From Selaginella tamariscina (lineage: Eukaryota > Streptophyta > Lycopodiopsida > Selaginellales > Selaginellaceae), in contig PUQB01000279.1 of NCBI GenBank assembly GCA_003024785.1, forward strand, positions 177,144 to 241,143: DNA of 64,000 nt, read 5' to 3'. The notes below the pieces were generated by a model that saw only the letters and a program-made list of their open reading frames with translations, was not told where the DNA came from and did not search any database. Both the position numbers and the translations under genes were made by a program. Of this stretch, positions 1-26,691 are shown piece by piece. Within the stretch, counting starts at the first letter, position 1; every line of letters starts with the position of its first letter.

Positions 1-544
1 CATGTTAAATCCCTGCATGATTTATATTTTTGGGTGTATGTGATACACCCACGCACACGCACGCGCTAATAATATAATGAAAGAATATTCGTTTAGGGCG
101 AATCTATATTTTATTCTTTTTAGGGTTTAAGTATATTCTCAAAGGAATATTCTATTAGGGTTAATATATATATTTAATTCCTTTAGGGTTTAGGTATATT
201 TTTAGGGTTTCAAGAGGCGGCGGCTGTGCACACAGGTGAGATCTGTGTGTGTGTGTGTGAATATGTATGTATGTATATATGTATAGGAGTGTGCGTATAA
301 TTTTATTTATTGATCTATCTCTCGCACACACACGCACACTCCTGTGTATATATATGTGTGTGTGGGTGTGTGTTTGTTTATCTGTATGATTTTATTTGTT
401 TCGCTCACACACGCATACACACGATATACATATACACATATATATATATACCTATATACATATATACATACATATATTATGTGTACCAGTATCTATAAAA
501 AAAATTTTATTGATCTATCTCTCCCACACACACGCACACTGCTT

Positions 545-583
<39 letters not shown>

Positions 584-1900
584 ATGCATATTAACAAATA
601 GTATACAACACTAGTTTATATATATGCTTATATATTCATATGGGTTATATATCTATATACACACATATATATGTGTGTGTGTTTATCTGTATAATTTTAT
701 TTATTTATTAGTTTTATCTCTCGCACACACACGCACACTCCTGTGTATATATGTGTGTGTGTGTGTTTGTTTATCTATATGATTTTATTTGTTTCGCTCA
801 CACACGCATACACACAATATACATATACACATATATATATACCTATATACATATATACATACATATATTATGTGTACCAGTATCTATATAATTTTTTTTA
901 TTGATCTATCTCTCCACACACACGCACACTGCTTTACATATATATATATATATATATATAATCAATGCATATTAACAAATAGTATACAACACTAGTTTAT
1001 ATATATGCATATATATTCACAGACTCTCTCTCTTTCTCTATGGGTTATATATCTATATACACACATATATATGTGTGTGTTTATCTGTATAATTTTATTT
1101 ATTTATTAGTTTTATTTTTCGCACACACACGCACACTCCTGTGTATATATATTGTGTGTGTGTGTTTGTTTATCTGTATGATTTTATTTGTTTCGCTCAC
1201 ACGCATACACACGATATACATATACACACATATATATACCTATGTACACACATATATTATGTGTACCAGTACTGTATAATTTTATTTATTTATCTATCTC
1301 TTGCACACACACGTACACTCCTATACATACATACATACATATATATATATATAACACACATATATATATGTGTGTGTTTTTATCTGTATAATTTTTTTAT
1401 TTATTAATTTTTCTCTCGCACACACGCTAAGCCCCTCGAGTGGCGGGATTAATCCCGTCGCTATAGGTTTATGGCCTCGACGGCGGGATTAATCCCGCCG
1501 CTATATGGTTGGGGCCATGGCGGCGGGATTAATCCCGCCGCCGAGGCCCTTCATGCAGGCTATGGGCGGCGGGATTAATCCCGCCGCTCTAGGACAAACT
1601 GAAGAGCGGCGGGATTAATCCCGCCGCCCATGGCCTGCGTGAGGGGCCTCGGCGGCGGGATTAATCCCGCCTCTCACCCATGCCCTGCACGAAATGTGGC
1701 AGGATTTATCTCGCCGGCAATGGCCTGTGTGAATGCCCTAATGGGCGGATTAATCCCGGCGGATTCCGCGCATGGCATTTACAGGGATGGGCGGCGGGAT
1801 TAATCCCGCGCTCGTGAGGCTAACCGAAGAGCCTGCATGAAAGATCCTGCACGGAAGGCTAACCGAAGAGCCTGCATGAAAGATCCTGCACGGAAGGCAC
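1..1900. repeat. Left terminal inverted repeat arm
   Basis: Order from the outside: a unique-looking AT-rich tip with TTTAGGG-like words (1-230), about 1.2 kb of alternating (TG/CA)n, (TA)n and TATG/CATA tracts in repeated sub-blocks, an array of the 18-bp palindrome (1440-1815), and two copies of a 35-bp unit around ctaaccgaagagcctgcatg (1820-1895). The same order in reverse complement forms the right arm. Short apparent reading frames here are microsatellite artefacts. Confidence 0.8.
1440..1815. repeat. Array of 18-bp palindromes, left arm
   Basis: About nine copies of GGCGGGATTAATCCCGCC or close variants occur near 1441, 1482, 1523, 1567, 1607, 1653, 1700, 1745 and 1792, spaced about 40-50 bp. 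The 18-mer is exactly self-complementary. Spacers are GC-rich and reuse words such as catgcaggc, ccctgc and gcctgtgtga. Confidence 0.9.
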
Positions 1901-4812
1901 TTAATCTGGAGGGAACTTTCTCAAATACTCCTTTATGGATTCGTTGGGGTACTCAGTTGAGACCCAATCTATCCACTTGTTCAGGTCCTCAACCATGGTC
2001 TTATCCTTTTCAACGGCAAACACACATGTATGCCGAAGGTAACACTCCTTCAAGACGGACCCCCTAGTGCAGTAGTCAAAAACCCACGCATCACTGTGAG
2101 GACCCCTGATCAAGTTGACGATGCTCCGTGCCGCTTGACTTGTAATGTTTGGATAACGTACATTGCCGAATACGTCACTCACCTATCGGTGTATCGGATG
2201 GAGGTTCAGGGCCGTTGGAGTGCAAACAGATGCCTGGCCAGTCATTTGGAAGCTTGAAATTGTTTGGCGCATTCCTAACAACCAAGTGAACAACGTATCA
2301 ATGCACTTGGGATTAGCATCGTTCATATAAAATCCTGTCCAACGATGTCTATTCTTCTTGGCGAAGGCGAAGGCAAAAGTATCGGTGACATGAGCAAGAA
2401 TCAAGAAATAAATACCTGAAAAAGTAGGTATCAGTGAAGAGCGCAAGCATGAATTCAATAATAAATACCTTCTATGTATATGCTTGCACGGCTAAGTTTC
2501 TCCACCAGATCCTCTAGTGCCCTATCTGTCGAAAGATTTTTTGACACCCGCCGATCCATCACGAACAATTGAAACGGTTTCCTACAAGCAGTGATGTTAC
2601 CCCATAAAGTCTCCGAATCTAACAACAAACATCTGTAGGGCTTGTCGTGATTCGTAGCATCCTCCTTTATAAGGTTCAATTCGGTTCTCCGCTGCTGAAG
2701 GACTGCCATAAGAGAAGGCGTCATCCCAATGTTCTCCTTTTTGGCGTTGGCGTGCAATAGATTCTTGCCTAGATCTTCCGATTGGTTCACCCATTCGACA
2801 AGCATATCATCGTTCGTCACATGCAAATATTTGCTGACCTCTTCATATGTTGAAGTCGAGGTCCAACCCAGTTTGTGGCAGTGTATTCCCAACCACTCCT
2901 TGAAATGCCTGACCGTCTTCAACTCCATTGCCTTGAGATGAAAAGGAGAGGTTGGGCTGCTGTTATTAATTTGTAGTTTGCCATCGATCACCAAATCAGC
3001 CAAGACTTCCATCTCCTCCATCGTTGTTCCATTTAAAGGCTTCAACCATGTGAGCTTGAAATCGTTGTCTACATCCTTTGTAGATTGAACAGACTTAGCC
3101 TTCGGCGTCTTACTGGGTTTCTTTGCAGACTTTTCTGAGGGCTCCCCTTCACTTGTCTGCTTCTTCTTCAGTGTTCCTTTTGAAAAGGATTCCATAATCC
3201 CCAACCATTTGGCAAAGATCCTATCTTCGGGGCAAGAAATCAACATCATCAGAAAGGATGTTTCCTTCCCGCCCACCTGGGCAAAATCAACTGCTGCAAT
3301 TTCTTCAACTCTCTGAGGAAAAAGACAGATTAATATACCGGCGAGATAAATCCCGCCCAACAATTTGCTTACCCGGTATTCCGCAGATTGTGTATTCCCT
3401 GCGTAGCTCTTTGTGGTCGCTGAAGAGATTCCCACACGGCTCGCGTGTGTTTAAACTTCTCCCATATTTTGCTGTTGTAGTGGTTGGTGTCGGCAGCGTC
3501 CCATTCCGCCGATAACTTATGGTACTGCTCGATTGTGAGATTCGGCTTAGCTAAAAACGCCGATCTTTTTGTCAGCTTCTCACGGGTATGCTCGGAAAGT
3601 TTTGTTGCCATCGTTCCTTTGTTGTGTTCATCGAGAAGTCGTTGGGCTGCCGTTATTGTGTGCTGGCCACTAATGATGTAGTACTTGATAGATTTTTATT
3701 CTCCGTCTGAATCTTCATGAGTTGTTCTGGTGTTGTGATCCAGACTTTGTCAGCGCCCTTCCTTCTTTCATAGTATGGACACAAAACAGCATTATGTGGA
3801 ACGGTATAAGAATTGTCGTCCTTCATCTTCTCCATGAGCTCAGCTACACGTTCCTGGTTGAGTGGCCTGTAATTGAAGTTTGGGTTGACGCTGCAATATT
3901 TAACCCTACAAGGATAAATCTTATCATCCAACATCATTTCCTTGTGACTTATTGCAGCATGAGATGCCACAGGTGCAGCTGACAAAACGATTGATGATTT
4001 TCTTTTGCGATCCGAATCAACATGTGTGATCCCCGACTGCAGCTGTTCTAGTGTTCTCGGCACACTCTTCCAGCTCCCGAAGCTTCCTAAGCAAATTGAA
4101 CGTGATCTGTAGAGAACCTGAGACCGAGCCACCCTCTCAATCTCCCTTATGATGTCGCTGTGTTCTTCTTCAATGTGAAGAGGGACGATTGCTCCACTTG
4201 CTGATTTTCTGTATTGTGAAGCAATATCTCCTGACAATACACCTACTCGATGAGTCTGAAGATCTTCGAAGTAGACATCCAGATGGATCCCCTCCATAGA
4301 TGGGCTTTCGTTGAGTTGAAGAAGAACTCCAAGGTCAACATCATTAGTGAACACGTGAACGTCATTATCCACAAGTCGACAAAACCACCCGAGATTAATG
4401 TTGTAACTGACGACCTCTGGATCCGAGAACGTGACATTGGATGGAACAAGGCATATCTGTCGAGCATCGTCCAATCTGGGTTCGCAGCCTGCTTTCGGGT
4501 GCTTGACTAGCGAATCTACTTTCCATTGTTTTGCTTGTCCATGAGATGTGACAGAGGTTAATTTGACAGCAACCATGGTTGCTCCAATGCGCTTCCCATT
4601 TATCTTAAAATATGGCCAAGTTGATTCCAGAATCCCCCTGCCCATCTCTTCTCCTGCTCTTGTCTTTAATGTCACCTCAATTCCACATCTGAATACAAAA
4701 ATGATTAGTTCAAGTATCCGAGTATAACAGATTTTATTTTAATTCTTACCCAGAATTTGACGACGACTCCATACTAATGACTCGATCTCCTTGTTTGATC
4801 AAATCGTCCTTC
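1901..4812 (-). CDS. ParB-like / DNA-methyltransferase-like protein of the palindromic element (interrupted)
   Basis: Main gene of the element, spliced, with small GT-AG introns at 4689-4749, 3313-3372 and 2416-2468. A splice acceptor near 4812 means a further 5' exon may exist; a candidate ATG lies at 4770-4772. The centre resembles a ParB/Srx-like N-terminal fold: NYRPLNQERVAELMEKM, then YYIISGQHTITAAQRL, the family's ISGQHR-type signature. The C-terminal third resembles a class-beta DNA methyltransferase in motif order: LFVMDRR where DPPY/W is expected, then a conserved helix (SQAARSIVNLIR), then VFDYCTRGSVLKE and CVFAVEKD, like DPFxGSGT plus the acidic SAM loop. The catalytic motif looks altered. 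Breaks seen: a one-base slip in an A run near 3690, a probable missing G near 3271, and an in-frame TAG at 2183-2185. Either a decaying copy or sequence errors. ParB-methyltransferase pairings are known in bacteria and phages; the role here is inference. Confidence 0.55.
3338..3358. promoter_or_regulatory. Variant palindrome inside an intron of the ParB-like gene
   Basis: A diverged copy of the array palindrome (ccggcgagataaatcccgcc) lies wholly inside the 60-bp intron 3313-3372, far from the terminal arrays. If the palindrome is a protein-binding site, this one could act in cis on the gene itself. That is inference; the match to the array consensus is visible. Confidence 0.5.
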
Positions 4813-5104
4813 TGCAAAATAATACACTATGAATACAAATTATATAAAAACGCACACACACTTGTATAAACCCGAATATACAAAAATACATATACACAGA
4901 GAGAAGTGACGTAATTAACTGTCCGAAGCTCACATTTGTGTAGTGCAAAAAAAGATAACATTTGTTTTAGAACCACCACAAATGTGAGCTCTGGACAGTT
5001 TTACATAGATTTAGCTTTTACTCGAAATATTATGATAAGATATAAAAAGTATAAATAAAATGAGATATGCAACTTATATATACTAATACATATATATTCA
5101 CATG
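4813..5104. other. AT-rich 5' flank of the ParB-like gene
   Basis: Intergenic stretch holding a short hairpin: gtccgaagctcacatttgtg at 4921-4940 and an imperfect reverse complement (cacaaatgtgagctctggac) at 4977-4996. No coding signal. Probably promoter or 5' leader of the minus-strand gene. Confidence 0.4.
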
Positions 5105-6030
5105 GAAGGTGCGGCGGGATTAATCTCGCCACCCCTTCAATGCCTCCTGAAAGAGTGGGCGGGATTAATCTCGCCACCTTTCTGGAGGCCTGAATGGGTG
5201 TGCGGATTAATCCCGCCACCTTTCGTTCTCAGAGAGAATTGGGCAGGATTTATTTCTCACACCCCTTCAGGGCTCCAGAAAGGCGGCGGGATTAATCCCG
5301 CCCACCATGTAGGGATGGTGAAATTAATCCCACCACCCTTCTCAGTTCCCTCCATTGGTATTTTGTAAACCTCTCCGTCTCAGACAGAGTTAGTCGGGAT
5401 TGATTCAACATACCAATGGAGGAAAAAAAGAAGGGTGGCGGGATTAATCCCGCCACCGGGCATAGAAGGTTCAGAGAAATTAATCCCGCCCCTCTCGTAA
5501 ATCATGTGCTCACACATATATATTGGCTGTGGCATTTTGAACAGGGATGGGTGGGGGCGGGATTAATCCGCCGCTTATATCCTGCGGAAGTGCCTGAGCG
5601 GCGGGATTAATCCCGCCGCCCTCCGCGAAGGGCATGAGCGTGGGGCGGGATTAATCCCGCCGTTCATGTCCTGCGTGAATTCCCTGGGCGGCGGGATTAA
5701 TCCCGCCGCCTTACGCGCAGGACATGTCATGCAGGCTCTTCGGTTAGCCTTCCGTGCAGGATCTTTCATGCAGGCTCTTCGGTTAGCCTCATGAGCGGTG
5801 GATTAATCCCGCCGCCCATCCCTGTAAATGCCCTGCGCGGAATCCGGCGGGATTAATCCCGCCATTAGGGCCTTCACACAGGCCATTGCCGACGAGATAA
5901 ATCCCGCCGCATTCCGCGCAGGGCATGGGTGGGCGGCGGGATTAATCCCGCCGCCGAGGCCATAAACCTATAGCGGCGGGATTAATCCCGCCGCGAGGCT
6001 CCTATAGCGGCGGGATTAATCCCGCCGCTC
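5105..6030. repeat. Array of 18-bp palindromes, right arm and subterminal region
   Basis: About nineteen palindrome units, perfect or degenerate, near 5112, 5158, 5203, 5247, 5284, 5315, 5394, 5437, 5480, 5555, 5599, 5644, 5691, 5796, 5846, 5889, 5934, 5973 and 6009. Units from about 5795 outward match the left-arm array in inverse order. Those from 5105 to about 5720 are extra and more diverged. Several units vary on both sides of the centre (for example ggtg...cacc in place of ggcg...cgcc), so the dyad is partly kept despite divergence. Confidence 0.9.
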
Positions 6031-6117
6031 GAGGGGCTTAGCGTGTGTGCGAGAGATAAAATTAATAAATAAAAAATTATACAGATAAAAACACACACAT
6101 ATATATATATATGTGTG

Positions 6118-6180
<63 letters not shown>

Positions 6181-6544
6181 GTATAGGAGTGTACGTGTGT
6201 GTGCAAGAGATAGATAAATAAATAAATTATACAGTATGGTACACATAATATATGTGTGTATATATGTATATAGGTATATATATGTGTGTATATGTATATC
6301 ATGTGTATGCGTGTGAGCGAAACAAATAAAATCATACAAATAAACAAACACACACACACACATATATACACAGGAGTGTGCGTGTGTGTGTGAAAGATAA
6401 AACTAATAAATAAATAAAATTATACAGATAAAACACACATATATATGTGTGTATATAGATATATAACCCATAGAGAAAGAGAGTCTGTGAATATATAAGC
6501 ATATATATAAACTAGTGTTGTATACTATTTGTTAATATGCATTG

Positions 6545-6586
<42 letters not shown>

Positions 6587-7150
6587 AGCAGTGTGCGTGT
6601 GTGTGGGAGAGATAGATCAATAAAAAAAAATTTATAGATACTGTACACATAATATATGTATGTATATATGTATATAGGTATATATATATGTGTGTATATG
6701 TATATTGTGTGTATGCGTGTGTGAGCGAAACAAATAAAATCATACAGATAAACAAACACACACCCACACACACATATATATACACAGGAGTGTGCGTGTG
6801 TGTGCGAGAGATAGATCAATAAATAAAATTATACGCACACTCCTATACATATATACATACATACATATACACACACAACACACACACACACATCTCACTG
6901 TGTGCACAGCCGCCGCCGATTTCACAGCCGCCGCCTCTTGAAACCCTAAGAATATACTAAACCCTAAAGAATTAAATATATATATTAACCCTAATAGAAT
7001 ATTCCTTCTGATAATATACTTAAACCCTAAAAAGAATAAAATATAGATTCGCCCTAAACGAATATTCTTTCATTATATTATTAGCACGTGCGTGTGCGTG
7101 GGTGTATCACATACACCCTAAAAATATAAATCATGCAGGGATTTAACATG
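5729..7150. repeat. Right terminal inverted repeat arm
   Basis: Reverse complement of the left arm: the 35-bp gcttcggttagcc units (5735-5790), palindromes, then long (TA)n and (CA)n tracts (6080-6890), then the AT-rich tip ending in gggatttaacatg. It is shorter than the left arm because some microsatellite sub-blocks are missing. Confidence 0.8.
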
Positions 7151-8230
7151 TGTGTGTCCATGAAGTGTTAAAGTTTCATGTGTATCAATACATACATACA
7201 CACATAGTTTTATACACATAGACATACATACATATTAGTACATAATATTAGAGAGACAGAGTACATATTATGGATCATATTGTATGTTTGAGAGAAGAGA
7301 GACAGTACATATTAACATGGATCATGCATGGTGTGTATGCATGAGAGAAGAGAGAGAGTGTTAAAGTATTAAATTCATACACATTGCATATATTAATACA
7401 CATATATACATACACACGTGTATACACACAGACATACATACATATTACATGGGTTTAGGGTTTAGGGTTTAGGGTTTAGGGTTTTGGATTTAGGATGGAT
7501 CATGCATGGTGTGTATGTATAGAGAAGAGAGAGTGTTGAAAAATTATTTTTGTACACATTGCATATATTAGTACACATATATACTTACACATATTATACA
7601 CAGATATACATACATAGTATATGAGAGAAGAGAGACAGTACATATTATGGATCATGCATGGTATGTATTATACACACAGACATACATACATATTAGTACA
7701 TAATATTAGAGAGACCGAGTACATATTATAGATCATGCATGGTGTGTATGTTTGAGAGAAGAGAGACAGTACATATTAACAGGATCATGCATGGTGTGTA
7801 TGTATGAGAGAAGAGAGAAAGTACACATATATACATACAGAGTACACATATATACATATACACGTGTATACACACAGACATACATACATATTACATGAGT
7901 AAATTCATTGTGTTACATATTAGGGTTTAGGATATGGTGTGAAGAGAGAGTGTTGAAAAATTATTTTTGTACACACATGTATACACAGGGTTTAGGGTTT
8001 GCTCCCAACAAGCTTAATATAAATATTACACATGTAAATTCAATGTGTTACATACACACAGATTGAGTACATATATCATACATGCGTTGAACATGATGTT
8101 TTCAATAAAGAAGCAACATATTTCTTCAGTTTGGTTTAGGGTTGTGCATGTGTGTGCATATGTGTTTTTGTAAGTTCTTGTAATGCGTGTGTAAATTTAT
8201 GATTGTGTTTATATATGTGTGCAAAACAAA
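7151..8230. repeat. Satellite-like tandem repeats with microsatellites
   Basis: Irregular units carrying gagagaagagagacagtaca, atcatgcatggtgtgtatg and cacagacatacatacatatt recur near 7253, 7290, 7330, 7500, 7620, 7700, 7750 and 7800. No coding signal. The segment abuts the right end of the palindromic element. Confidence 0.6.
7451..7484 (+). repeat. Interstitial telomere-like tract (TTTAGGG)n
   Basis: Four to five uninterrupted TTTAGGG heptamers, the plant telomere repeat, lie inside the satellite-like block. Scattered single copies occur nearby, for example at 7920 and 7988. Confidence 0.8.
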
Positions 8231-8231
8231 C

Positions 8232-9010
8232 ATCGAATAATTAAGAAAATAATATTAATAAACACACTATGAACATATTTTAAATTATACATAATAATAT
8301 ATGATTTTATCTAATATATAGCCATATATAGTTTTAATAATATATATTAATTTAATATTGATAAAAAGGTTTAACATTGAAATATTCTTGAAATAATAAG
8401 AAATTAATTGAGAAAATCCCATTAATATATACAAATGTAAATTAAGTACTCAAATAATTAACTAAATTAATTATCATAATCATGTTTAATATTGGAATAT
8501 TCTTGGAATAATAAGAAAATAATAAAGAATATCCCATTAATATAAAGAAGATTAATTACTCAAGTAATTAAGGAAATGATATTAATATACACACTATGAA
8601 CATATTTTAAATTATACATAATAATACATCATTTTATCTAATATATAGTCATATATAGTTTTAATAATATATATTAATTTAATATTGATAATAAGGTTTA
8701 ACACATGAATATTCTTGAAATAATAACAAATTAATTGAGAAAATCCCATTAATATATACAAATGTAGAATAATTACTGCAATAATTAAGAACAAGACTAA
8801 TTTAATTATGATAATCAGGTTTAATATTAGAATATTCTTCAAATATTAATAAAATATTAAAGAATATCCCATTGATACTAGGAAATGAAAACTAAATACT
8901 CGAGTAATTAAGAAAATAATAATAATAAACAGACTATGAATATATTTTAAATGATACATAATAATATATCAATTTATTTATTGTATAAGTATATATTTAT
9001 ATATATATAT
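8232..9010. repeat. AT-rich tandem repeat, about 330-bp unit, about 2.3 copies
   Basis: A unit beginning taattaagaaaataatatta and containing cacactatgaacatatttta starts near 8237, 8566 and 8903. The first two copies align through the atcccattaatata segment about 180 bp in. Very AT-rich and noncoding. Confidence 0.65.
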
Positions 9011-9585
9011 ATAATATAATATACTTGAATATAAGAATGTAGAATATAGTCTAAAATTTGTAATATTAAACAGCTTGAATCACTTGAATAACATTAAATG
9101 CAATTTTAAAATACTCATTGGAATGGAGTATATATGTCAGAGTGTCGGATATTTGTGTCAACTCATCTTAAATTTTATTTTCTGTTCTTTTTAAAAAATT
9201 TGAATTTCTGACATATGTATTGTCGTCTGACATGTAAATTTGAAAATGCATTTAATTTCCCACTCAAATTCAGATCTGGTTCTTTCTCCGGCAAGGGTTT
9301 CTTCATTTCTGTATTTTTCACTCTTTAGATCTTCTTTTTTCTTCATAGTGATCATCTCAGGAGCGAGATTAAATTGGGTGCTATTCTTTATAGGAAAGCA
9401 CGCGCCTTCAGTGCTGTTTACAAGTAAGTATTATAAACAAATTTAAAAATACTTATAAAGATTCACTCTCTTACATTCTCTCTTAAAATTATAATTTAGG
9501 GTTTAGGAATGCATTAGGATTATAATATATTCTGTTAGGATTTATCCCGTTTAAATATCCTTTTAACTTAATATTCTAGGTTAAC
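9011..9585. other. AT-rich spacer without a recognised gene
   Basis: A 68-codon open frame (9240-9446) has a hydrophobic start but no recognisable similarity. The TTAGGGTTTAGG words near 9500 resemble the tip of the palindromic element. No supported feature. Confidence 0.4.
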
Positions 9586-10014
9586 CGGGCGGCGGATTAA
9601 TCCGGCCATTTCTTTTTCGCTCTTCGAAGAGGTGGCGGGATTAATCCCGCCACCATCTCTCGGGCAATGCTTCTCCGCCACTGAAAAAGAGTGGCGGGAT
9701 TAATCCCGCCGATAACCTTCTCAACTGATGAAGAGTTACCAGAATTTATTAGAAAGAGTTGTCGGCGGGATTAATCCCGCCAACCATTTTAGGAGGCAGG
9801 GAAGGGGTGGCGGGATTAATCTCGCCACCACTTCCCTGTTTTAAAGATTTGGGAACAGGATTTATCCCGAGATCTCTTTGAAATCATAGTTTTGGAGAGA
9901 GTTATGTGCGGGTTTAATCCCGCCACCCATTCCCCATCGTAAGAATTGTGGGCGGGATTAATCCGCCGACTCTCCCGAAGGGGTTGAGTCGGCGGCGGGA
10001 TTAATCCCGCCCAT
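9586..10014. repeat. Second palindrome array, left side of the DUF7869 element
   Basis: About nine copies of the GGCGGGATTAATCCCGCC family near 9588, 9632, 9692, 9764, 9808, 9856, 9906, 9950 and 9991, with the same 45-55 bp rhythm as in the first element but different spacers. It lies 150 bp upstream of the DUF7869-type gene and so probably marks that element's subterminal region. Confidence 0.85.
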
Positions 10015-10167
10015 CAGTTGTATTAATCAAACATGAGATATTATCTCTAAACATAATTATGTATTATTGCATATGCATATTATTAAGTAACCGTAATTCA
10101 GATTTCTTAGAAATATTGCATAAACAGATATCATAAATAATACAATTATTTACGTGCAGGACAATAT

Positions 10168-12757
10168 GTTTAATACTGGAGATAAAGTATGTCTTCTTCG
10201 GAACAACGAGATAGTTGGCACTGGAACTGTGGAAGTTCGAGATAATATGCATCATGTCACAATATTGCCCAAGGATCTTGTGTGTACGTATGGGTGAACA
10301 CCATTTACAAGCATGTTGAGGTTCTGGGAATGGAATTTGAGGAGGGTTCTCCTGTATTGTGGAATTTGGATGAAGTCAAGGCTGACACAGAATATGCAGA
10401 GTCACAAACAAATAGTAGCACGAGTTTACCAGATGATGGCTTGCCTGCTGTGATGGATGAGGTGATTCTCTTTCTTCGTGAGATTGAAGTCGGAAGAGGC
10501 ATCATCACAGCTATAAATCCAATTGGAAGCAGTGTCAGAAGAGAAACTAGGGTCCACTTCGTGGGTGTAGTTGTGACAGAGGTTTCACCTAATGGCACAT
10601 TGTATCTGGATCCCTCGTGAGGTGGCGAACATCTGAATTAAGACGGCAAGATGGTTCAACATATTCTGGGTTGGATTTCAATAATAACAACCGGAAGAAC
10701 AACTCATATTTGAAGAGGTTCCTTGCATTGGTCCTATTGTAAGAAAAAGGCGATTCATGGGTTGTAGATCTTCCCCTGCAAGTTTCAGCAAGAGGGTAAA
10801 GATGGATCCTACATCTTCCGAAAGTGTTACGAGCATTTCCACAATTGACTGTTGCAAGAAGAAGTGTTGTCAGATGGCAGACCGGAATGAAATTACCCAA
10901 TGTAGACATGTCTTTTCGTATGCTCACCCAAAAGCAAAGGCATGAGTTTGTATATGCTGCACTAACTGGGTGTATTGATGGAATGGCCTCAGACACAGGT
11001 TATCTAAACATATTCTTTTTTTATAGTTTACAATACAGGAAATTTACACTGAAGACATATGATACATAGAAGTTCAAATTAATTCATTTATTATTAACTT
11101 TTTGCACAATTGTACTTCCATATCAGAGTACATCCATGGTATTTAATAAGGTGGCCATCTGCTTCAAAGCTTGATATAGTATATACGGGATCCTAAAGAC
11201 CACGTTCTACCGTCGGAGGGATGAGTGGCTAGATGGAGCGCGAACCTCAGTTCATGGGAACACTCGCTTGGTCAAAACCCGCTCTCACATCATGGCAGCC
11301 ATAGAGATACTCAAGGCTTTTGTGGAAGCAAATGCAGACAGGATGCCTCACAAATGCCGACCACAAATGCAGGGGTCAGGGAAAATCTCAAGGTTTTGCC
11401 TTCAATCTACACTCAATTGAAGCTGTGTGAACATGTGAACAAGTGCCTCAGTTTGATGGGGCTCCAAGCAATCTGCACTGGTACCTTCAACAACATATGG
11501 AATACTCATTTTAAGGATGTGGAAATTGCAAAACACTCTAGCTTTTCCAAGTGTGACACTTGTACATCATTGAAGGCTGCAGAGGCTTGTGCAAAAAACC
11601 TTTGGTGGAGATCACTGTCATTCAAAAGAAGATGGAGGCCCACATGATTGCACAACAAACTTGCCGGTCTCATACTATGCACACCGCATGCTTTCTGTGT
11701 CACGCCCATCAGAGTACCTGTGCTTGATCCATGAAAGATGGATCATTCAAAACCAGCATTCCAAAGCTCTTTGCAACACCAAAGTGCCTTGGAAATGTCA
11801 TGAAACTTCCGATTTCATTGACAGGTGTGCTAACACATGGACACGGTTGTGAGTCATATGGACACTTTTCACTTCCACATTGGTCTAGCGACTCCAATTT
11901 CACTATTGGGTCGTTAGCCATGTGTTCAGAAACCTTGAAGCCCACTCAAGACAAGTCCTATCAGTGATCTCAAAGTAAAGAAACAACACCTTCAACCTTT
12001 ACATAATGCTCTCATGAACACGTCTGCACTTGAGACTACTTGGGAATATGAGAGGCATTGTCAACAGCCTGCACAGAAACAGATGGCCCTGTTGAGAGTT
12101 CTGGTTCAGTGGAGGGATCTAGCTCAAATAGTGTACATGTGTCCTCAACATCAAATAAGCTTCCTCATCATTTGCTTTTACAGATGGATAATTGTGCAGG
12201 CGAGAACAAAAATAGGTAAATCATTTTACTTAAGGGTTTCTCAAGCTCATACTTACTTTTATTTTCTAGATATGTGCTAGCATACTTGTCAATGCTTGTT
12301 GCCAAAGGTGTGTTTGAAACAATCACGCTCAGTTTCTTATGGTTGGTCACACTCATGAAGATATTGATGCGTTCTTCAGCAAGGTTTCCAACTCTACAAA
12401 AAGGACAAGTGCACTTACTTTACCGCATATGATGAATCTTTTTGAAAATTGCATCTCCAAAAAAAGTTGTGCTTTGCTTGTGACTGAGGTGCCAGACTTC
12501 AAAAAATTTTCTCAAGGAGTATATAAAAGAAGGGAGTGATTCTTTAGTTGGTCACTTTGTGCCGCTACAATTCTTTTTCTCCATACGAGATGGTATACCT
12601 ATTATGCAGTACAAGTTACGGCCATCAGAGCAGGAATGGTTACCGAAAGAGGGCTTAATGCTCTTCAAAAGTGGAGAGGATGGAAAGCCACTCCCAGAAG
12701 GACAACCAGACCCTATTCCATTGAGTGCCCAGCTCAAGGAATAAGAGGTTATTATTG
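10168..12757 (+). pseudogene. DUF7869-type transposase-like protein, truncated
   Basis: Spliced plus-strand gene. Recognisable pieces in order: an N-terminal segment with GDKVCLLRNNEIVGTGTV (10168 on); an acidic segment (10320-10618); a Cys cluster CCKKKCC and a conserved block RMLTQKQRHEFVYAALTG (10850-10975); LPSIYTQLKLCEHVNKCLSL and HSSFSKCDTCTSLK (11398-11570); a core with QMDNCAGENKN, a short intron (about 12213-12269), then RYVLAYLSMLV and the hallmark VGHTHEDIDAFFSK (12340-12380); and a C-terminal piece (12559-12744). The DNC...ENKN plus GHTHEDID pair is typical of DUF7869 proteins, which accompany mobile elements and probably have an RNase H-like fold. Several stops and frame changes suggest decay. 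Similarity to the inverted copy at 22740-23480 ends near 12757, where retroelement DNA begins. Confidence 0.65.
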
Positions 12758-15700
12758 ATGACTGTGCATGTTCCTGTATTAGTGTTGAAGACTCCTCCTC
12801 GACAGGATTCACCTCATGTCAGTTCCTTAGCACATCCGTAGGCTTTCTCCACTCCTATAAGTTTAGGATTCCTATACAGGGTTCTTCCAATCTTGTATCA
12901 ATGTCGAAGGTTCCTCCTCAATAAGATCCACCTCCTGTTGGTTCGTCAACACACTCACCTGTGCATCCACAGACTTCTGTACAGGATTCTTCCAATCCTG
13001 TACACTTCTCAACATCCACACATGTTTCTCCCAATCCTACCTCTTTTTATTACTCTTCTTTTGTTCCACCCCCAAGATCCTTCCTCTTTTTTAATCACAG
13101 CTCCTTCCTTCTCTCCTGAGTTCTTACCACTATCATGCATGAACTTGCCACTGATTCTGCTCCTTTTCATCTTTTTGCCTTCTAAGTAACTCCTACGTCC
13201 TCTTCTACCTTTCTTGTACCTAACTCCCCTGTTTTTCAATCTCCTTCTCCTGTTCCTTCTTTTTCTCCTCCTTCTTCCCTACCATCCAAATATCACTCCT
13301 TTCAGAACGTTTTTGACAAGCACAAGGCTGCAGTTCTTCCTGTTCATAGGTCGTACGACTGTCCTATTGATCTTGTGGAAGGAAAGACTCCACCGTTCGG
13401 ACTGATTTATGCACTGTCACCTACAGAATTGGAGGTTCTTCGTCAGTACATTGAGGAAAACTTAGCATTCGGCTTCATTTGTCACTCAAAGTTCCCTGAA
13501 TGAGCACCTATCTTCTTTGTCAAAAAGAAAGATGGAGTTTACGTTTGGTTGTGGACTACAGAGGTTTGAATCAAGTCACCATTTGGAACTAGTACCCGTT
13601 GCCATTGATCCCAAAACTTCTCGATCGGTTGCGAGGAGTAAAGGTGTTCATAAAGATTGACTTACGAGGGGCTTACAATCTTATACGGATTCGTCCAGGC
13701 GATGAGTGGAAGACTACCTTTCATACAAGGTCCATATGGACACTTCGAGTACACGGTGATGACTTTCAGACTTACCAATGCCCCAACCGTGTTCCAAACA
13801 TGGTGAACGACATCTTTCGTGACTTCTTGGACTAATTTGTGGTAATCTACCTCGATGACATTTTGATTTTCTCCAAGGACCAGGCAGCTCATGACAAGCA
13901 TGTACAACTAGTCCTACAGACGCTGCGAGCATGGCCTGTATGCAAAGTTGGAGAAGTGTTTCTTTGACTGGGATATTGTGGAGTTCTTGGGCTACATCGT
14001 CTCTCTCCTGCTGGCGTTTCCATGGACATGCACAAGGTGAAGACTATCGCAAAGTGGGAGAGGCCCAAGTCTGTACGAGACGTACAATGTTTCCTTGACT
14101 TTGCAAACTTCTACAAGCGTTTCATACAGGGTAGATGCCTCGAATTTTGTAGTAGGATCTATTCTATCATAAGTTGGAGAAGACAAGTTGCTTCATCATG
14201 TAGCTTTTCACTCTCGTAAGTTCCTTTTGGCGGAGATCAATTACGAGATTTATGACAAGGAACTCAAGGCCATTGTGGATTCGTTCGAGGAGTGGCGGCA
14301 TTTCCTGGAAGGTGCTGCGCATCCTGTACAAGTTTTACAAATCACAAGAACCTGGAGTATTTTCAAACGGCTCGAGTTCTCAGTTGGCGACAGGCTAGGT
14401 GAGCGGAGTTCCTATCATGTTTTGATTTCGTCATCATCTACATGCCTGGTTTTCGAAATGGCAAGGCGGATGCATTGTCTAGGTGCTCTTACCTTGCACT
14501 GACCCTGGGTGATCCTGCATATGACTGTCAAAAGTAAGTGTTGTTGGGTCCTGATTGACTTTGGCTTGCAACACTACAAGTTCATCAGGCTTCAGTAGAT
14601 TCCACACTCCTACAGGACATCCATTTGCAGTTGGCTACAGATGACTTGGTAAGGAATGTGTTTTCACATATTAGTCCTAACATCACAAGTTTCTCTTCCT
14701 TCAGTTCCCGTTAAAACTACAAGTTGTTTGCCATACAGGACGGACTCCTGTACCGAGAATGTCTCCTGTACGTTCATGTTGGTATTTGCAGTGTGGTACA
14801 GGATTGTCATGATACCCGGCTACAGGACATTTTGGTGTGGCCAAGACAATTGAGTTGGTGACTCGCAACTATTGGTGGCTTGGGTGCGAAGTTTTGTGGA
14901 CAAGTTTGTACAGAGTTGTGACACCTACAATAGGTCGAAGATGTCTCATCACGCGCCCTCTGATCTTCTTATCCTCTTTCTATTCCTTCTGCTCCTTGGA
15001 GATCCTTTTTATGAATTTCCTCACAGATCTTCCTCCTTCTCGTGGATTTGATGTAGTTCTTGTGGTGGTTGACCGTTTCACCAAACAGGCTCATTTTCTA
15101 CCATGTCACAAGACTGCTATAGGCCAGACAACCGTTGAGTTGGTGATCCGCAAAGTATTCCAACACCATGGTCTTCCTGAGAGCATTGTTTCTGATCGAG
15201 GCCCATAATTCATGTCCAAGTTTTGACGAGAACTTCTTTAGAGTCTACAGAAAGCAGACCTTTCTTTAGGATACCATCCACAAATTGATGGGCAGTCAGG
15301 CACGATTCAGACCTTGGAGCAATATCTTTGCTGCTTCATCAGTTACCAACAGGACAACTGGTTGGACCTTCTTCTAATGGCAGAGTTTGCCTAATCTGTT
15401 CATGCATCTACAAGCTAGACACCTTTCTTTACTCTTACATGCTACCATCCACGTTTTGACTTTGTCCTCCTGCTTCTCTTTTTCCGCTCCTACAGTACAG
15501 GATCGTCTCCAGAATTTTCATCAGGTATAGAGAATCTTCGGGTTCATCTTCAATAGGCACAAGAACGGTACAAGTGTCATGCTGATGCTCATCGTCAACC
15601 GGCACCTGCATACAAGATTGGTGATCTCGTGTGGCTTCTTCGTCGACATATTCGCACCAATAGGCCTTCTTTAAGTTGAATTTTCAACAATTGGGCCCTT

Positions 15701-16570
15701 ACAGGATTGCAGCTAAGGTCAATCCTGTAGCTTTCCGACTCGAGTTACCATCTACGGTGAAACTTCATCCTGTGTTTCACACTCTTCGTTGGAGCCGTAT
15801 CATCTTTCTTTTTTTCCTGGTCGTGCTTCTTCTCCTCCCCCTCCCGTGGTCATTGACGGTGAACCTGAGTACAAAGTTGTAGCCATCCTTGATTCTTGTC
15901 TTCATCGCCGCCAACTTCAATACTTGATGGATTGGAAAGGTTATTTGCCTACCGATCGCACTTGGGAACTTGCATCCAACTTACTCCATGCTTCTTTTAG
16001 AGTTGTTGCTTTTCATCGGCGTTATCCTGCTAAACCAGGTCCCAAGACTCATGGAACTCGTCCTTAGGAAAGAGGTGCTGTCACAACCCGATACAGGATG
16101 CATGATACAGAATACGGGTTACAAGATATTCCTATAGGATATACCTACAGGATATGCCTATAAGATATACCTATAGAATATGCCTATAAGATATTCATAC
16201 AGGATATACCTATAGGATATGCTTATAGGATATACTACAGGATATGCCTAGAGAATAAGGGTCACTATTTTTAGCTCATGACCAGATTAGACTCATGACC
16301 AAATTAGTTTGAAGTTGTGAGTATAAAAGCTCCGACTTAATTATTGTTATACAATTAGTTATTATCAACACCAGTCTTTCTACGATCAATCTTGTTTTGT
16401 CTTGTTTTTATCTTGTCTTGCTCCTTACTTCCTGTTCTTGTCTTGTTCTTGGTTCCTCGTTCCTGTCTTGTTCCTGTCCTGCTCCTTGTCTTACTTCTGA
16501 GTCAAGCTTCTTTGTTCTCGGAATCCTGCTCACTTCCTTGTTTCTAGATCGTAGCTTGACAGTTACTACA
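12758..16570 (+). mobile_element. Decayed Ty3/gypsy chromovirus fragment
   Basis: Degenerate pol order, broken by many stops and shifts: reverse transcriptase (VFDKHKAAVLPVHRSYDCPI near 13310; a YLDDILIF-type block near 13850; GYIV near 13990), RNase H (near 14240, [14 protein letters not shown]), integrase (near 15040, GFDVVLVVVDRFTKQAHF), and a C-terminal chromodomain (near 15930, YLMDWKGYLPTDRTWE). The chromodomain places it among chromoviruses. Gag, protease and a 5' LTR were not recognised. A likely 3' LTR starts at TGTCACAACC (about 16079) and ends near 16570. Non-functional. Confidence 0.8.
16079..16570 (+). repeat. Putative 3' LTR with internal minisatellite
   Basis: Begins TGTCACAACCCG just after the chromodomain frame ends and finishes near gacagttactaca (TG...CA ends). 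Between 16120 and 16250 it holds about eight tandem variants of a 16-18 bp unit like aggatatgcctataagatat. A TATAAA-like word (tataaaag) at 16322 may be the LTR promoter. No 5' partner was found, so the limits are provisional. Confidence 0.45.
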
Positions 16571-16589
16571 TACCAATGGAGGGGACTGA

Positions 16590-16735
16590 GAAGGGTGGTG
16601 AGATTAATTTCACCATCCCTTCCATGATGGACGAGATTAATTCCGCCACCCTTCTGGATCACCTAAAGGATATGCCAAATAATCCTACCTAGTTTTCTCT
16701 GAGACCGAGAAGGGTGGTGGGATTAATCCCACACA
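16590..16735. repeat. Diverged palindrome copies, right border
   Basis: Three diverged units occur near 16595 (ggtgagattaatttcacc), 16628 (gacgagattaattccgcc) and 16712 (ggtgggattaatcccaca). The first keeps near-dyad symmetry with changes on both sides of the TTAATT/ATTAAT core. Confidence 0.7.
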
Positions 16736-16749
16736 CCCATTCAGGGGCT

Positions 16750-19700
16750 CCAGAACGGTGCGCTTCACAAAAGGGCCTGCTATTTAGCCTAGATTGTTTA
16801 CACAACCCAAGGATTAACACCCCTAGCCAAGTGTGCTAGCAAGCACACCTAGTTATGAGGCTTAACCTTCCTTGATCACATGCACACATTTACTGCCAAA
16901 ATCTCCAAACCCTTAGCATTGAACATGATATGACCCAAGAGGTCATATCCTAAGTGTCTGCCAAATTGTCCACCTTGTGTCACTTCTAGAACTCACCCTT
17001 GGAACCCCTCTTTATAAACCCTTAAGAACCTGCCCTTAAAATCCATCCAATGCAAATCATGGCTCTTAGGATAGACATGACCGTCATTTGCACTCAATTG
17101 TCCATCCCTTATTCAACCATGAGTGTGGGATTTGCAAACAAATTCTTTTTACTAGATTCTTTGTTTGGTAGAAGGACTTGCAAATATGTACTTGACAATA
17201 CACTCCATGAGTGTGAATGGTATTATGAAGGAAATGAGTTAACTAACCCACTAAATGCGGCATATAGATCCCAACAATGTGGATTCACCAACACTAAGGG
17301 AGGCTTACCCTTATGGGTATGATACACCCCCACAACTTAAAAGTTGGGGTGACACAAAAAGTGTGTCTTAAAGACAAAAGTTAGGTTTATGCTAGCAAGG
17401 AACTAGAGATTCTTAGTCCTTTACATGCTTCATCCTCACATATATTCTACTTAATATGTGTGATAACCCCTGCCCCCTCGTTTTCATGTTATGTAAGTGG
17501 CTAGCACCATAATGAATTAGGGCTTAGTGAGTTTAACCTGCCCCTAACCTACCCCAGGGTTAGTACCCTAGAAAAGTAAGTTTACCTTCATTTAAAGTTT
17601 CTTGATGTATCTAATGATAATCAACGAATTACCCTAAGTGGGGTAATTTTTCATTTTTCATTTTTCTATATTTGGATAGATAATGATAAATGGGTTTATC
17701 ACTAAAGTAAACATGTTTAATGAATGTTATTCAAGATGTATGTAAGAGCAATAGTGATGGTGATAGTCAAAATACTATAATAATGAGTATGTTAAGTAGT
17801 TTGCTCAATGTCATTATTTGATGTTCTTAATATGGTTTGTAATAATAACATTAGGTACAAGTAGCATTAAGTTAACTAATTTTCTAAGTTTAAGTTCTTT
17901 GAATTGAATTAGTACAATGTGAAACCTTAGTTATGAGCATACATTAGGTGTCCAACACTAACTGACTTAATTATGCTATGCATAGTTTAATCAGATGAGC
18001 AGTTACATTTTTGATTTATTAAGTATAACTTTTTTTGTCCAATAATTCATTTACATGCTTAAGAGGTCTTGTCGGAGTACATGTTTTGCTAGAGGTTAAG
18101 ATTTTTGTGTCTTTGTTCAACTATGAGCGTGGGATCTTGGCAAAACTGGTATCTTTACCATGTTCTTAGGGTTCACAAAGAAGGGTTTTAGGGTTGGCAT
18201 TTACAAGCCACATTCATGGCACCAAGTGTAACTCTTTGAGTTTGAGAAGCTATGCTGAGGTTAATCATGTGTTAGTTGAGTTATACTCTCGAATGTCGGC
18301 AATTCCTTAAGGGGTAAGTCATAATAGTTAGCTTTATCAAAGGGTATGTGTAAGACATGTCTTTTAAGTGGGGTCAGGTTGTTTAGGTCTCATGGGCAGA
18401 ATCCTAAAGTTTATTTTGAAGGTTTTTATAAGGGTCTGAAGGTAGTCACTCTAGAGGACTTAGGGTAGAATTATAAGTCTCATTCATGTTCTATTGGGCA
18501 TCTAAGCTAGACTCTTAAGGGCATTTAAAAGAATTAGTGGTTGCTTATATAAGGTGATGATGCTAGATGGCCACTTGGCAATCACATATTGTCACATGGT
18601 GGCCCTTTCGATGAAAACTTTAACAACATTGTGGTAAGACTATTAGCGGGAACTAGTGTGGATCATATAAGAGAAACTCAGGTACTAAGATTAGTTGTTT
18701 TGATGTTTATCCTTCTTACATAATTGTGTCAAGATAAGGAGCATGAAATTCCAATTCTTGTTAGTTAACATTCTCATTTTTAAAATTTTAACTTTATCAC
18801 CCTCTTTATCTATCATGAGTGTAATGTGATTACCACCTGATCATGTCATTTGTACTATGTGTTTATGGACACCAATTCACAAAATTAAACATAACCATAT
18901 TTAAGACAACTAAGTTTATCTTACCTTTCGACCCCCAACCTAGAAAAGAATTGCCCTAGCTATATCATTAGTATTTTAGAAACTTTTACTAAAATTTATC
19001 TTTGTTACATTTTAATTTAATCAACAAGTTAAACTAATTGATATAAAGTTGTATGTGGCTCTCGTATTAATCAATATTTTTACTCAATCCCCTTGTATTT
19101 TTTATGTTAGACATAGTAAATGATCATGTTTTGAATAATAAATAAGGCAAGTTGTGTTTAACATAGCTCAATTTGTTGCAATAATGTCGGACACACCCTA
19201 GGCCCAATTTGATTGCATTGAAATATTGTGGCCCTATTGGACCTCCACCTGATACCTAATGTGGAGTGAGCTTTACAATCATACTCTTAGCATGTTGAGG
19301 TGTTTATGAACGTGATGATTTTGAGAGCCAAAGGGGATTGGGAGTGGATTCAAAAACTTTAAACTCCCTATAAAGGGATTATAACCCAGACTGGTGGTAA
19401 TTGATTGAGCCATTTGCTAAATCTCTCTCCACACGGATGCTTGTAGATGAACTCGTGCCCTTGGCATCTACTCTTCCCCTTTATCATACATCTCTTAAAG
19501 AGATATACCATAAACAATTTTCTGAACTGCTTCTTGACACTCTTGGTATTTTCTAGAGTTGTATTGCAAAAGCTTCTTTGAAACTTATAGTTTAAGTTCA
19601 TCATAAAGTAACTCTAAGCATCATCGTCCCTCATATTCAGAATCATCTAATATATATTTTGAAACCATAAACATAATTTATTAGGTCCTTGATTCCTTGC

Positions 19701-22700
19701 TTACATTTTAAGAATCAACTTGCAAATGTAGTGCAAGATTTTATGCATAACTCCAATTGTTTTGATGTCTTTATTCACCTTTAACAATTCATTAAGTTTT
19801 AGTTTCTCCCTTGAGAAATTGTTTAGCTAGCACATGCAATTTCTAAATTTTAATTAATGTGGCATCAAAATAGCTTTCAACGTCATATAACAAATTGTTT
19901 ATAATTTTATAATTCTTCAAACCCTTGAAATTTGAAATTTTGAGTGACTTAAACTTATTAAGATCATCAACATCTCTTTTGATAAAGATTTTAATTCAAA
20001 AGAACCTAACTCGAAATCATGCCTTGCCTTTTTTTTTTTTTTTTTTTGTGGTAAATCTGATGTCTTTTTAAGAGTATTAAAAGCTTTCATCATGTCAAGG
20101 CACCCCTTCTAGTGCATCATTCTCTTTATTTTGGGCTTCTAAGAAAACCCTCTTTCCCTCCATGTTTACTCGTTTTTGCTTGCTCATTGTTTTGAACTCA
20201 AATCTCACCACTTGGAGAATATGCATGGAAGATTCATAGTACAAGGTAAGAACACCTTGTAGGTTGAACGTCCAAATGCATTAGCTGAAGCAATAAGAGC
20301 CATGTTTGGACATACCTAATGTCTTATATTCCCCAAACAAGTGCTAGCATTCACATGACCAAACTCTGCATAGATACAAACTTATTATCCAAAAGTAATA
20401 GAGTGTTCTAAAAGTTTAAACTAGCTAAAACAATTTTAACTTACTAAAGTCCTTAAAATACTCTAAACTTTATAATTGATACCAAATGTTAGAATTTTTA
20501 TTTGTTGTTACATGTGCCACTCACCATATGCCAATCATGGAATCCTTCATGGTGAACCCTCATGTGAAGAACCCGTCTACCTAAAGCTAACATTCACACT
20601 TTACCATAAACACATAATGCTCACCTTGTGATTCATGATGCATGTTCTACTTAACCATGAGTGTCATTCTTAACTTGAAGTAATGATAGGCCCAGAACAA
20701 GGCCTCAATCAATGAATTTGTAGAATGGGTATTTAAACAAGACTTCCCAAGTTATCAAATGAAAAGAGATGTGTGACTCCTTGGATGCAATATACCTAGG
20801 CACAACAATGTAAATTTACTAACAATAAGGGTAGGTAAACCCTTAAGGTGTGGCATTCATGCACATGTAGAAAGGTTGGGTAGTACAAAAAGCGTGTATA
20901 GGACTCCCTTAAATCTTTTGTATGCTCGCCCACACATACTATACTTAATATTCATGATGGAGCTCCCTCTCTTGTTTGAATAGGTGGGTTAGCCCTAAGT
21001 GAAAAAGTAAAGATATAGTAAAAACTATGGCAAATGCACTTGTAAAAGATTAGGGTTTTGAGGGTGAACTTGGGTGCAAGACTCTAAAATGATATTGATA
21101 CATTAAGTACAATTTAGAAACGCATGCATCAATCCCACCAAAATGAACACACATAATAAGTGGAAAAATATTTTATTTCAAGACCTCCATCATGTCAATA
21201 AGATAGGTAAAATAAAAAAGATATAATCAATGTGAGGTTGCCATGTTAGACTAAGAATAATGTAAGGTCATCTCCTTTGCAAAGTATGCTAGTGTGCATG
21301 GTGATCAAAGCATTATACTCATGCTAAGGCTTAGTCAAGTCTTGAGATGCATAGATTAGCCTTAATGCACGATGTTCATGGATGGCATTACCTTGTGGGA
21401 TTGTTACTTTATTTGAGAAATTGTCACATAATTGGGCAATTTGCTAAAATGGATGGTTACTCTTACATGAGATATTGTCACACAAGTGAACATTTCTGTG
21501 ATGAAGAGTTTTTTTCCCTCAAGATGCTATTATACAATTAAGCATCTCCTTAAATGGATTTGAATTTGATTACTCTTATTTAAGAAATTGTCATGTTAGT
21601 GACCATCTCTAACATGAGATGATCTATTACTTTTGTCTAAATAACATCATGTGAGTGGGCATCTCCTTAGATAGAGTTCAAATAGATAGTTACCCTTATT
21701 TAAAATGTTGCCAAAGTAAGTGATTTTCTCCTTAAACGGTCTTAGATCTCCAATACATGGTGTATTATTTTTAATATAGTTAAATGCAAATTGTAATTAA
21801 AATAGGCATGGATATAATTCCATTTCATAATAATTAGCAATTTTAGCTATTTAATTAGTATTTTCTAGTATTAAAGGAATATTCTTTAGAATATATGCTT
21901 AAAAACAAAATATTCTTTAGAATATTTTATTTTTGTAATCAACCCTTTAATAAATTATAACATTCATTGAACAAAAATTAATAACATTATAAAAGTAGAA
22001 GGTATTAAATTATATAATATATTTATTTAAGATTGTATGGGCCTAATATAAAACTTAAGGAAGAGCATAAGAGGTACATTATATAAATATTGATGTTGTT
22101 AATAAAATATTAATATTTAAATATAACTTATTAATTATAAATTTTGTACTAGTAATAATATATATATATATATATATATAATATACAAAATCCAATAATA
22201 ATATAGTCAATCTTCCATAATTTTTATAAATTTATATAGTTAAGTAAACAATTTGGTACTATTATTAAAGAGTTTATTATAATTATGAATATTAAATATA
22301 CAATATTTTATAATTTTGTAATTGCTTTAAACTTCAGAAAACATACATTCTCTAGTTTTGTTAATCGTGTATCAATGCTTCTTAACATCCACCCATATCG
22401 AATGGATTTAACATTTATAAAACATGCTGGGTCTTTTTGATTGGGAAACCATGTTTTCTCTAGGCATCCATTATATCTTTCGTTCTCCTTCTCATGTCGT
22501 CTTTTTTGTGGTTTAAACCATACTATTTTTTGTAATTACTTCAGGTGTGTCGATAATTTGACTCATCCAAATAGGCTATTATATGACACATCTGGAGTAA
22601 TGAGAACCATCATTATTTTTTTGAAGATCCTTGCAGTAATCAAAGTATGCTTTAGGTTTTTGGTTCCTTTGTCCAACAAAGTGTGTGGATGATGTCATTT

Positions 22701-22740
22701 CATCTCCTCTTGCCACTTTGTTTTAGGCCAAAAAAGGTGT
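16750..22740. other. AT-rich relic repeat DNA without recognised genes
   Basis: Open frames are few and short; those at 17050-17322, 19368-19604 and 21347-21541 show no recognisable similarity. The block contains diverged copies of segments also present elsewhere (see repeat entries), a 23-T run near 20031-20047 and a (TA)n tract near 22157. It reads as old, degraded transposon or intergenic DNA. Confidence 0.5.
18060..18640 (+). repeat. Diverged repeat copy related to 24716-25860
   Basis: Shared words in the same order: ggtcttgtcggagtacatgt / ggtcttgtcggaatacacgt, gagcgtgggatctt / gggcgtgggatctt, gggttggcatttacaagcca / gagttggcatttaggagcca, and the distal tggccctttcgatgaaaact / ttggcccttcgggttaaaac. 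Separation is about 6.7-7.2 kb. The pair could be diverged LTRs of one ancient element or dispersed copies of one family. Confidence 0.55.
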
Positions 22741-26487: not shown

Positions 26488-26691
26488 ATGATAAGGGTGA
26501 ATCCGCAGCGGCGGCGGCGCCATCGTGATCTGTATGAAGTCGAGAGGCTAACGGCGATCATCATGAATTCTAAAATCTTCTGTGACTTTGGATCTCATCG
26601 GTGCCAATCACACCGCTGCTCGTTTCTGCTCTCGCTAGCTCTGTCTCCTTTGAAACGATTGCCGCAAGATGGGAGCCGACACAGGAAGTAG
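26488..26691 (+). CDS. Overlapping uORF, possible conserved-peptide uORF
   Basis: A 67-codon frame opens at an upstream ATG (26488-26490) and ends 22 bases inside the methyltransferase-like coding region, in a different frame. Its middle (RHRDLYEVERL, MNSKIFCDFGSHRCQSHRC) looks more protein-like than a random leader. Arabidopsis relatives of the downstream gene are, to my recollection, annotated with conserved peptide uORFs (CPuORF46/47). If homologous, the frame would dampen translation of the main ORF. The function and the homology are inference. Confidence 0.4.
   Translation: MIRVNPQRRRRHRDLYEVERLTAIIMNSKIFCDFGSHRCQSHRCSFLLSLALSPLKRLPQDGSRHRK

Follow-up and report, generated by a model that had tools for sequence, protein, structure and literature searches.

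In En/Spm transposons, the transposase that cleaves the element ends is accompanied by a second protein, TNPA, which acts on repeated short motifs, and transposons of the Sola superfamily leave 4-bp target duplications. Bacterial ParB proteins are recognised by two hallmarks, a GERRxR box and an ENxQR box. In Arabidopsis, the VANC21 protein is described as removing silencing and as binding a short motif that is dense in noncoding regions of the transposon it belongs to (PMC5735166), and a Physcomitrella Sola1 is named in a table of a further report (PMC9033089).

The window analysed here is a 64,000-nucleotide stretch of the Selaginella tamariscina genome (GenBank assembly GCA_003024785.1, contig PUQB01000279.1, positions 177,144 to 241,143), and an earlier note had read its first 7,150 positions as an element in which a ParB-like protein is paired with arrays of parS-sized palindromes. 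We report that the palindromes and the gene belong to a large, high-copy class II cut-and-paste DNA transposon with terminal inverted repeats (TIRs), a unit of ∼14–15 kb and three genes (A, B and C), and that window 1–7150 arose by accident, where two incomplete copies of this larger transposon meet in inverted orientation.

A full unit of 15.4 kb is found at C2:167021-182402, where one terminus is followed by gene B (minus strand), gene A (minus strand), an array of 26 palindromes, a centre of ∼3.9 kb, an array of 19 palindromes, gene C (plus strand) and the other terminus, the array counts being of sites with at most 3 mismatches. Distances of ∼3.8 and ∼5.2 kb separate the two arrays from the termini, and the arrays flank an AT-rich region between the divergent genes A and C. 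The terminal inverted repeats are ∼27 bp long (ATGCAAGTTGTAACTAAAATGGGCATG and ATGCAYGTTGTAACTAAAGTGGGCATG), with the two ends differing at 2 of the first 27 positions. When the flanking letters were left free, the two terminus patterns occurred at at least 1,478 and at least 1,490 places in the genome, and the flanks varied among the matches listed (approximately the first 100 for each terminus). From 41 of the 100 and 62 of the 100 matches listed for the two termini we drew 12 end pairs, of which seven carry a 4-bp target duplication, as against 5.5% of random pairings (7% for duplications of 4 bp or more); this duplication is absent from the other five. The span is 14.0–15.1 kb in 11 of the 12 pairs and 7.4 kb in one, while the C2 unit, which is outside this set, has a TTA/TTA duplication only. 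Pairing 100 listed termini of the gene C end with 90 of the ∼100 listed matches to a gene A motif gave 22 inward pairs within 20 kb, 21 of them in the expected orientation and 19 of those 9.1–11.4 kb apart, and four outward pairs.

The element borders that had been placed at positions 1 and 7150 did not hold up, as the inverted repeat runs on leftward into the flanking stretch L010 and element sequence runs on rightward. The arms do pair with each other (1–1898 with 7150–5708; 1328 matches, 42 mismatches and 601 gap columns), and the segment taken as the right arm, window 6043–7150, lies within the AT-rich centre. Mapping to the complete C2 copy showed that window 1897–12760 is one partial copy of the 15.4-kb unit (unit coordinates 1950–14239) and that window 1–1813 plus L010 is a second copy in inverted orientation; L010, which was fetched as the left flank and holds a palindrome array and gene C, matches unit coordinates 8230–15382, so that the inverted copy extends left through it to its terminal repeat. 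The palindromes had likewise been described as lying beside the inverted-repeat arms of the element, but the arrays are interior, between two divergent genes and far from the ends. The main copy breaks off at the gene A 3′ end, so that gene B is missing from the window. In four of four other copies compared from the window's gene A subfamily, the join at 1897 is absent and the sequence runs on normally past this point; the inverted structure therefore looks local, and the inverted join was rejected as a mobile unit. The features of the locus are collected in Table 1.

Table 1. Features of the transposon copies in the window (window coordinates unless another sequence is named).
Feature	Position	Strand	Basis
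Partial second, inverted copy (centre and gene-A-side array)	1..1896	-	blastn to C2 unit 6405-8217, and array matches
Palindrome array, inverted copy	1442..1810		9 sites with at most 4 mismatches
Join of the two inverted copies	1897		gene A homology to other copies ends here
Gene A, broken copy, 3′ end missing	1901..4772	-	ATG at about 4772; frames here and open frames in other copies
Lone palindrome in gene A intron	3340..3357		positionally matched site in every gene A copy covering the spot (5/5)
ParB-like region of gene A, NYRPLNQERVAEL ... YYIISGQHTITAAQRL	3582..3916	-	motif only, no ParB family match
Palindrome array, gene-A side	5113..6026		17 sites with at most 4 mismatches
AT-rich, microsatellite-rich centre between arrays	6040..9580		blastn to unit 7556-9698 and beyond
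Palindrome array, gene-C side	9590..10011		8 sites with at most 4 mismatches; next to the DUF7869 gene
Gene C (DUF7869), decayed, interrupted after 12760	10166..12760	+	PF25273, E = 3.3e-35 for the joined piece
Array-region fragment of the same transposon family, beyond a retrotransposon-like insertion	16563..16760		blastn to 5175-5368 and unit 5295-5489
Older gene C end, terminal repeat included	21784..23464	-	about 86% identity
Gene B	L024:1813-2757 = C2:167312-168256	-	PF03031

No palindromes occur near the older copy of the gene C end because the upstream part of that copy is absent. The element centre also holds a short interstitial tract of the plant telomere repeat TTTAGGG (window 7448–7482), and a decayed Ty3/gypsy-like retrotransposon, read by eye, occupies window 13300–16560 between gene C and the family fragment. 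Some elements abut other family members or stop within them, as nested or adjacent insertions (L010 at 3047, L016 at 3722 and L018 at ∼9590). The host genes of the window include one with a methyltransferase domain and DUF7870 (26654–27850), a wall-associated kinase, a GH17 plus X8 gene and MutS. The last three, with the TTTAGGG tract, point to a land plant, and the relatives of gene C would suggest a bryophyte.

The earlier count of about 28 copies of an 18-bp palindrome was borne out: window 1–7150 contains 27 sites within 4 mismatches of GGCGGGATTAATCCCGCC, 14 of which are perfect, compared to a mean of 0.02 perfect GC-rich 18-mer palindromes (maximum 1) in 50 first-order Markov copies of the same stretch. 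The spacing between sites has a median of 45 bp, and 67% of spacings fall at 42–46 bp (n = 299). The lone palindrome in the gene A intron recurs in the other copies at L011 1999, L012 7348, L017 1115 and C2 4975. Genome-wide, 46,888 sites with at most 1 mismatch were counted in 300.7 Mb and none with a reversed control pattern; a gene A 62-mer matched 1,343 places with at most 3 mismatches, which corresponds to ∼35 palindromes per gene A. A 55-mer from the window's gene C (156 matches) was rejected as a measure of copy number, since it carries a local indel. The palindrome had a single match in the viral contigs searched, which is about what we estimate for chance.

An association between palindromes and gene had also been proposed, and our check of co-occurrence agrees with it: 9/9 array loci (L011–L019) hold pieces of gene A or gene C, in a small sample that covers ∼100 listed palindrome sites, all on C1 and C2, with two of the loci overlapping. 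Four palindrome-free loci (L020–L023, 27.5 kb in total) contained neither gene. In L010, L013, L014, L016 and L018 arrays occur with gene C and with no gene A piece inside the fetched stretch.

Comparisons of palindromes with the spacers between them were made between and within the two subfamilies seen, using pairs of copies that are non-independent. Between subfamilies, palindromes diverge at 0.0516 versus 0.1165 for spacers on the gene C side (25 pairs, ratio 0.44) and at 0.0390 versus 0.0789 on the gene A side (9 pairs, ratio 0.49), and the contrast is significant in 5/5 representative pairs (p 0.0023 to 3.7e-7). Within subfamilies the corresponding values are 0.0345 versus 0.0319 (20 pairs, ratio 1.08) and 0.0286 versus 0.0286 (6 pairs, ratio 1.00). 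Sites were picked by consensus likeness in either copy, which introduces a bias to conserved ones, but the same rule shows no effect within subfamilies. Pooled pairs more than 90% identical gave 0.033 for palindromes versus 0.057 for spacers, and 0.040 versus 0.067; an initial comparison on a single multiple alignment was dropped in view of possible misalignment among the repeats. These divergence patterns indicate that the palindromes are functional sites, which appear to have been selected while the element was active and to have drifted after insertion. Variation is lowest at the palindrome centre and higher in the GGCGGG/CCCGCC arms. The central TTAAT is unchanged throughout the comparisons for the gene C side. 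For the gene A side, no variation was seen at A7, T8, A11 and T12, and the values for T9 and A10 are 0.018 and 0.049.

Gene A is itself under purifying selection as judged from substitution patterns, with a pN/pS of about 0.25 between subfamilies (pN ∼0.03, pS 0.11–0.14 and ratio 0.23–0.28 in full-length comparisons; 0.33–0.42 for the partially covered gene A of L015). Constraint is weaker at its C-terminus (0.38–0.46 between subfamilies), and within subfamilies the ratios are noisy, ranging from 0.27 to 0.82 on few changes with one pair undefined. For gene C, pN/pS is 0.05–0.19 in 6/7 comparisons and 0.43 in the remaining one; the one pair available for gene B gave 0.43.

The window copy of gene A has introns at ∼4749–4689, 3372–3313 and 2468–2416, with splice sites assigned by eye, and its frame is broken at ∼3700 and beyond. 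The ParB-type protein that the earlier note had proposed stands in part: the motif is present, split over two frames, but membership of the ParB family is unsupported by profiles. The ParB_N profile PF02195 had no match at E ≤ 10 in the whole genome, with a control that was positive in 11 of 14 genomes and over the cut-off in nine, and searches of gene A against Pfam, NCBIfam, PHROGs and PDB, with the intact region among the hmmscan queries, matched neither ParB nor a methyltransferase. By eye, gene A is without the GERRxR arginines and without ENxQR, the corresponding text being I[S/N]GQHTITAAQ. The Pfam search also recognised no helix-turn-helix (HTH) or other DNA-binding domain, which counts against gene A as a binder of the arrays. 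A tblastn search with the ParB-like region found no credible phage or plasmid match (one phage hit at E 9, plasmids none), and a single-sequence fold of 330 residues of gene A, lacking the second half of the ParB-like region, reached a pLDDT of 33.4, too low for the model to be of use. Weak matches to IL31 (E 0.15), PH_BUD3_C (0.092) and a PHROG of unknown function (0.039) were judged irrelevant, and two repetitive designed proteins in PDB spurious. Gene A is an orphan conserved gene with a ParB-like motif, and this motif is the sole argument for a putative bacterial-type ParB identity.

No relative of gene A was found up to E 10 among 5.8 billion proteins, a collection that includes bryophyte proteins. 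The query for this search was the window's broken reading, whose 361-residue N-terminal-side frame agrees with other copies; the C-terminus was poorly covered because the window's last exon is partly out of frame. In the C-terminus, a methyltransferase motif-I-like DYCSRGSVLKE can be picked out by eye, with no profile support. The catalytic motif of beta-class amino-methyltransferases is DPPY, and assignment of the gene A C-terminus to this class was rejected, as the candidate motif IV reads DSETLW and there was no Pfam match and no credible PDB match. A BLASTP match between the N-termini of genes A and C (E 0.024) was left unused. Among 113 gene A copies scored out of 6,153 first-look candidates, the best 29, the window's included, carry the window's 361-residue frame at 98% identity or more (for example C125:467425, C610:287755 and C26:36417), and most of the others have a longer frame, often of 478 residues; since the query stopped at the end of the window form, that form is favoured in the ranking. 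This distribution suggests that elements have still multiplied with a broken gene A.

Gene C is a probable DDE/D transposase, to which we attribute catalysis from its conserved residues: a composite query found 61 relatives, including proteins of Physcomitrium, Riccia and several invertebrates, and 26 aligned relatives share invariant Q, D-N, K-N and H residues that are compatible with a DDE/D core. Gene B, beside gene A, encodes an NIF/FCP1-like phosphatase (PF03031, E 1.5e-7) and was perhaps captured from a host gene. Its HAD motif I is DVNGV, with N in place of the second aspartate that FCP1-like proteins normally have.

The explanation we favour, with a probability of roughly 0.55, draws on the analogy with VANC on VANDAL elements and TNPA on En/Spm: a transposon whose promoters would be controlled through the palindrome arrays by a protein that the element encodes. 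The gene C transposase would move the element via its termini, and an element-encoded DNA-binding protein, most likely that of gene A, would occupy the dense arrays and keep or tune the promoters of genes A and C by anti-silencing or autoregulation; the gene B phosphatase may act on transcription. With their position immediately upstream of both divergent genes, the arrays are most simply seen as promoter-proximal control sites. Constraint acts on the sites as well as on gene A, and in the loci seen neither occurs outside this family, which favours a binder encoded by the element. Weighing against the explanation are the end pairs without a 4-bp duplication, the TTA/TTA of the C2 unit, the noisy pN/pS of gene A within subfamilies and the weaker constraint on its C-terminus. 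Gene A is the candidate array binder; most of the observations would also agree with gene C or a host factor in this role, and the odds of this explanation and its rivals overlap because more than one protein may bind the arrays.

It is possible, if unlikely, that the gene C transposase itself binds the palindromes as internal assembly or repression sites and that gene A has another role. Gene C adjoins an array, resembles a helix-turn-helix protein weakly (HTH_psq, E 0.084, short of the cut-off), and in some of the fetched loci is paired with arrays where no gene A piece is seen; however, the distance of the arrays from the termini would be unusual for end-binding by a transposase, and gene A is likewise close to an array. 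We give about the same small chance to a host transcription factor that binds the palindromes and drives the element genes. Each palindrome half, GGCGGGA, resembles the core of an E2F site, and the arrays are upstream of both genes A and C. Brassicaceae transposons are also reported to amplify E2F sites (PMC12595863). Yet variation that is lowest in the centre and higher in the GGCGGG/CCCGCC arms runs opposite to the expectation for an E2F site, clearly so on the gene C side and less so on the gene A side, and the fetched 18-mer loci always occur with this transposon family (9/9).

That the arrays are neutral tandem duplications, functionless and hitch-hiking, is very unlikely: sites and spacers were duplicated jointly, local tandem duplications are visible, and within subfamilies sites decay like spacers, but between subfamilies the sites diverge at no more than half the spacer rate, significantly so in all representative pairs. 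A ParB-parS-like system, in which the gene A product would load at the palindromes, spread or form clusters, and serve to partition, mark or condense the copies, is at least as improbable. The ParB-like motif, the clustering of palindromes near gene A, the central position of the arrays and the conservation of both gene and sites would suit it; the profile and tblastn searches, in which no ParB relationship emerged, and the failure to see a GERRxR or HTH speak against it, and an integrated, TIR-bounded element has no obvious need for partition. We are equally doubtful of a reading in which gene A combines a highly diverged ParB/Srx fold with a methyltransferase-like domain, and in which its product loads onto the arrays and either spreads or lays down a self-mark. 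If true, such a reading would mean that more than 1,000 copies of a eukaryotic transposon share a chromatin identity of their own, similar to ParB-parS.

One 18-bp palindrome occupies ∼47,000 sites in this plant genome of 300 Mb, where it seems to be under selection and is tied to one transposon that also carries an orphan conserved gene and a phosphatase. The system offers arrays, candidate binders and more than 1,000 natural copies for studying how a transposon controls its own expression or escapes silencing.

In the literature searched we found no mention of DUF7869, no DNA transposon combining an NLI interacting factor with a methyltransferase and, among the matches listed, no description of this transposon, none of which implies absence from print; judged by title, the papers found on ParB domains together with eukaryotic transposable elements concerned prokaryotic systems. 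Bacterial ParB-parS also combines clustered palindromes with a nearby gene bearing the ParB motif, but gene A differs in being without a profile match, GERRxR or a detected HTH and in sitting in an integrated eukaryotic transposon. Gene C belongs with the DUF7869 proteins of Physcomitrium, Riccia, cnidarians and molluscs, whereas the protein collection that yielded these had no relatives of gene A. With Sola, which is present in moss, the element shares TIRs and a 4-bp duplication. En/Spm has a similar two-protein logic, although the TNPA sites are subterminal where the arrays here are central, and termini and genes differ. The motif of VANC21 is given as YAGTATTAY, in one orientation (PMC5735166), as opposed to the 18-bp palindromes here, which counts against the VANC analogy. 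Nevertheless, VANDAL21 of Arabidopsis is, as described there, a DNA transposon with dense, family-specific arrays of a short motif in its noncoding parts, bound by a protein other than the transposase (PMC5735166), and it is in this layout of arrays that the Selaginella element resembles it.
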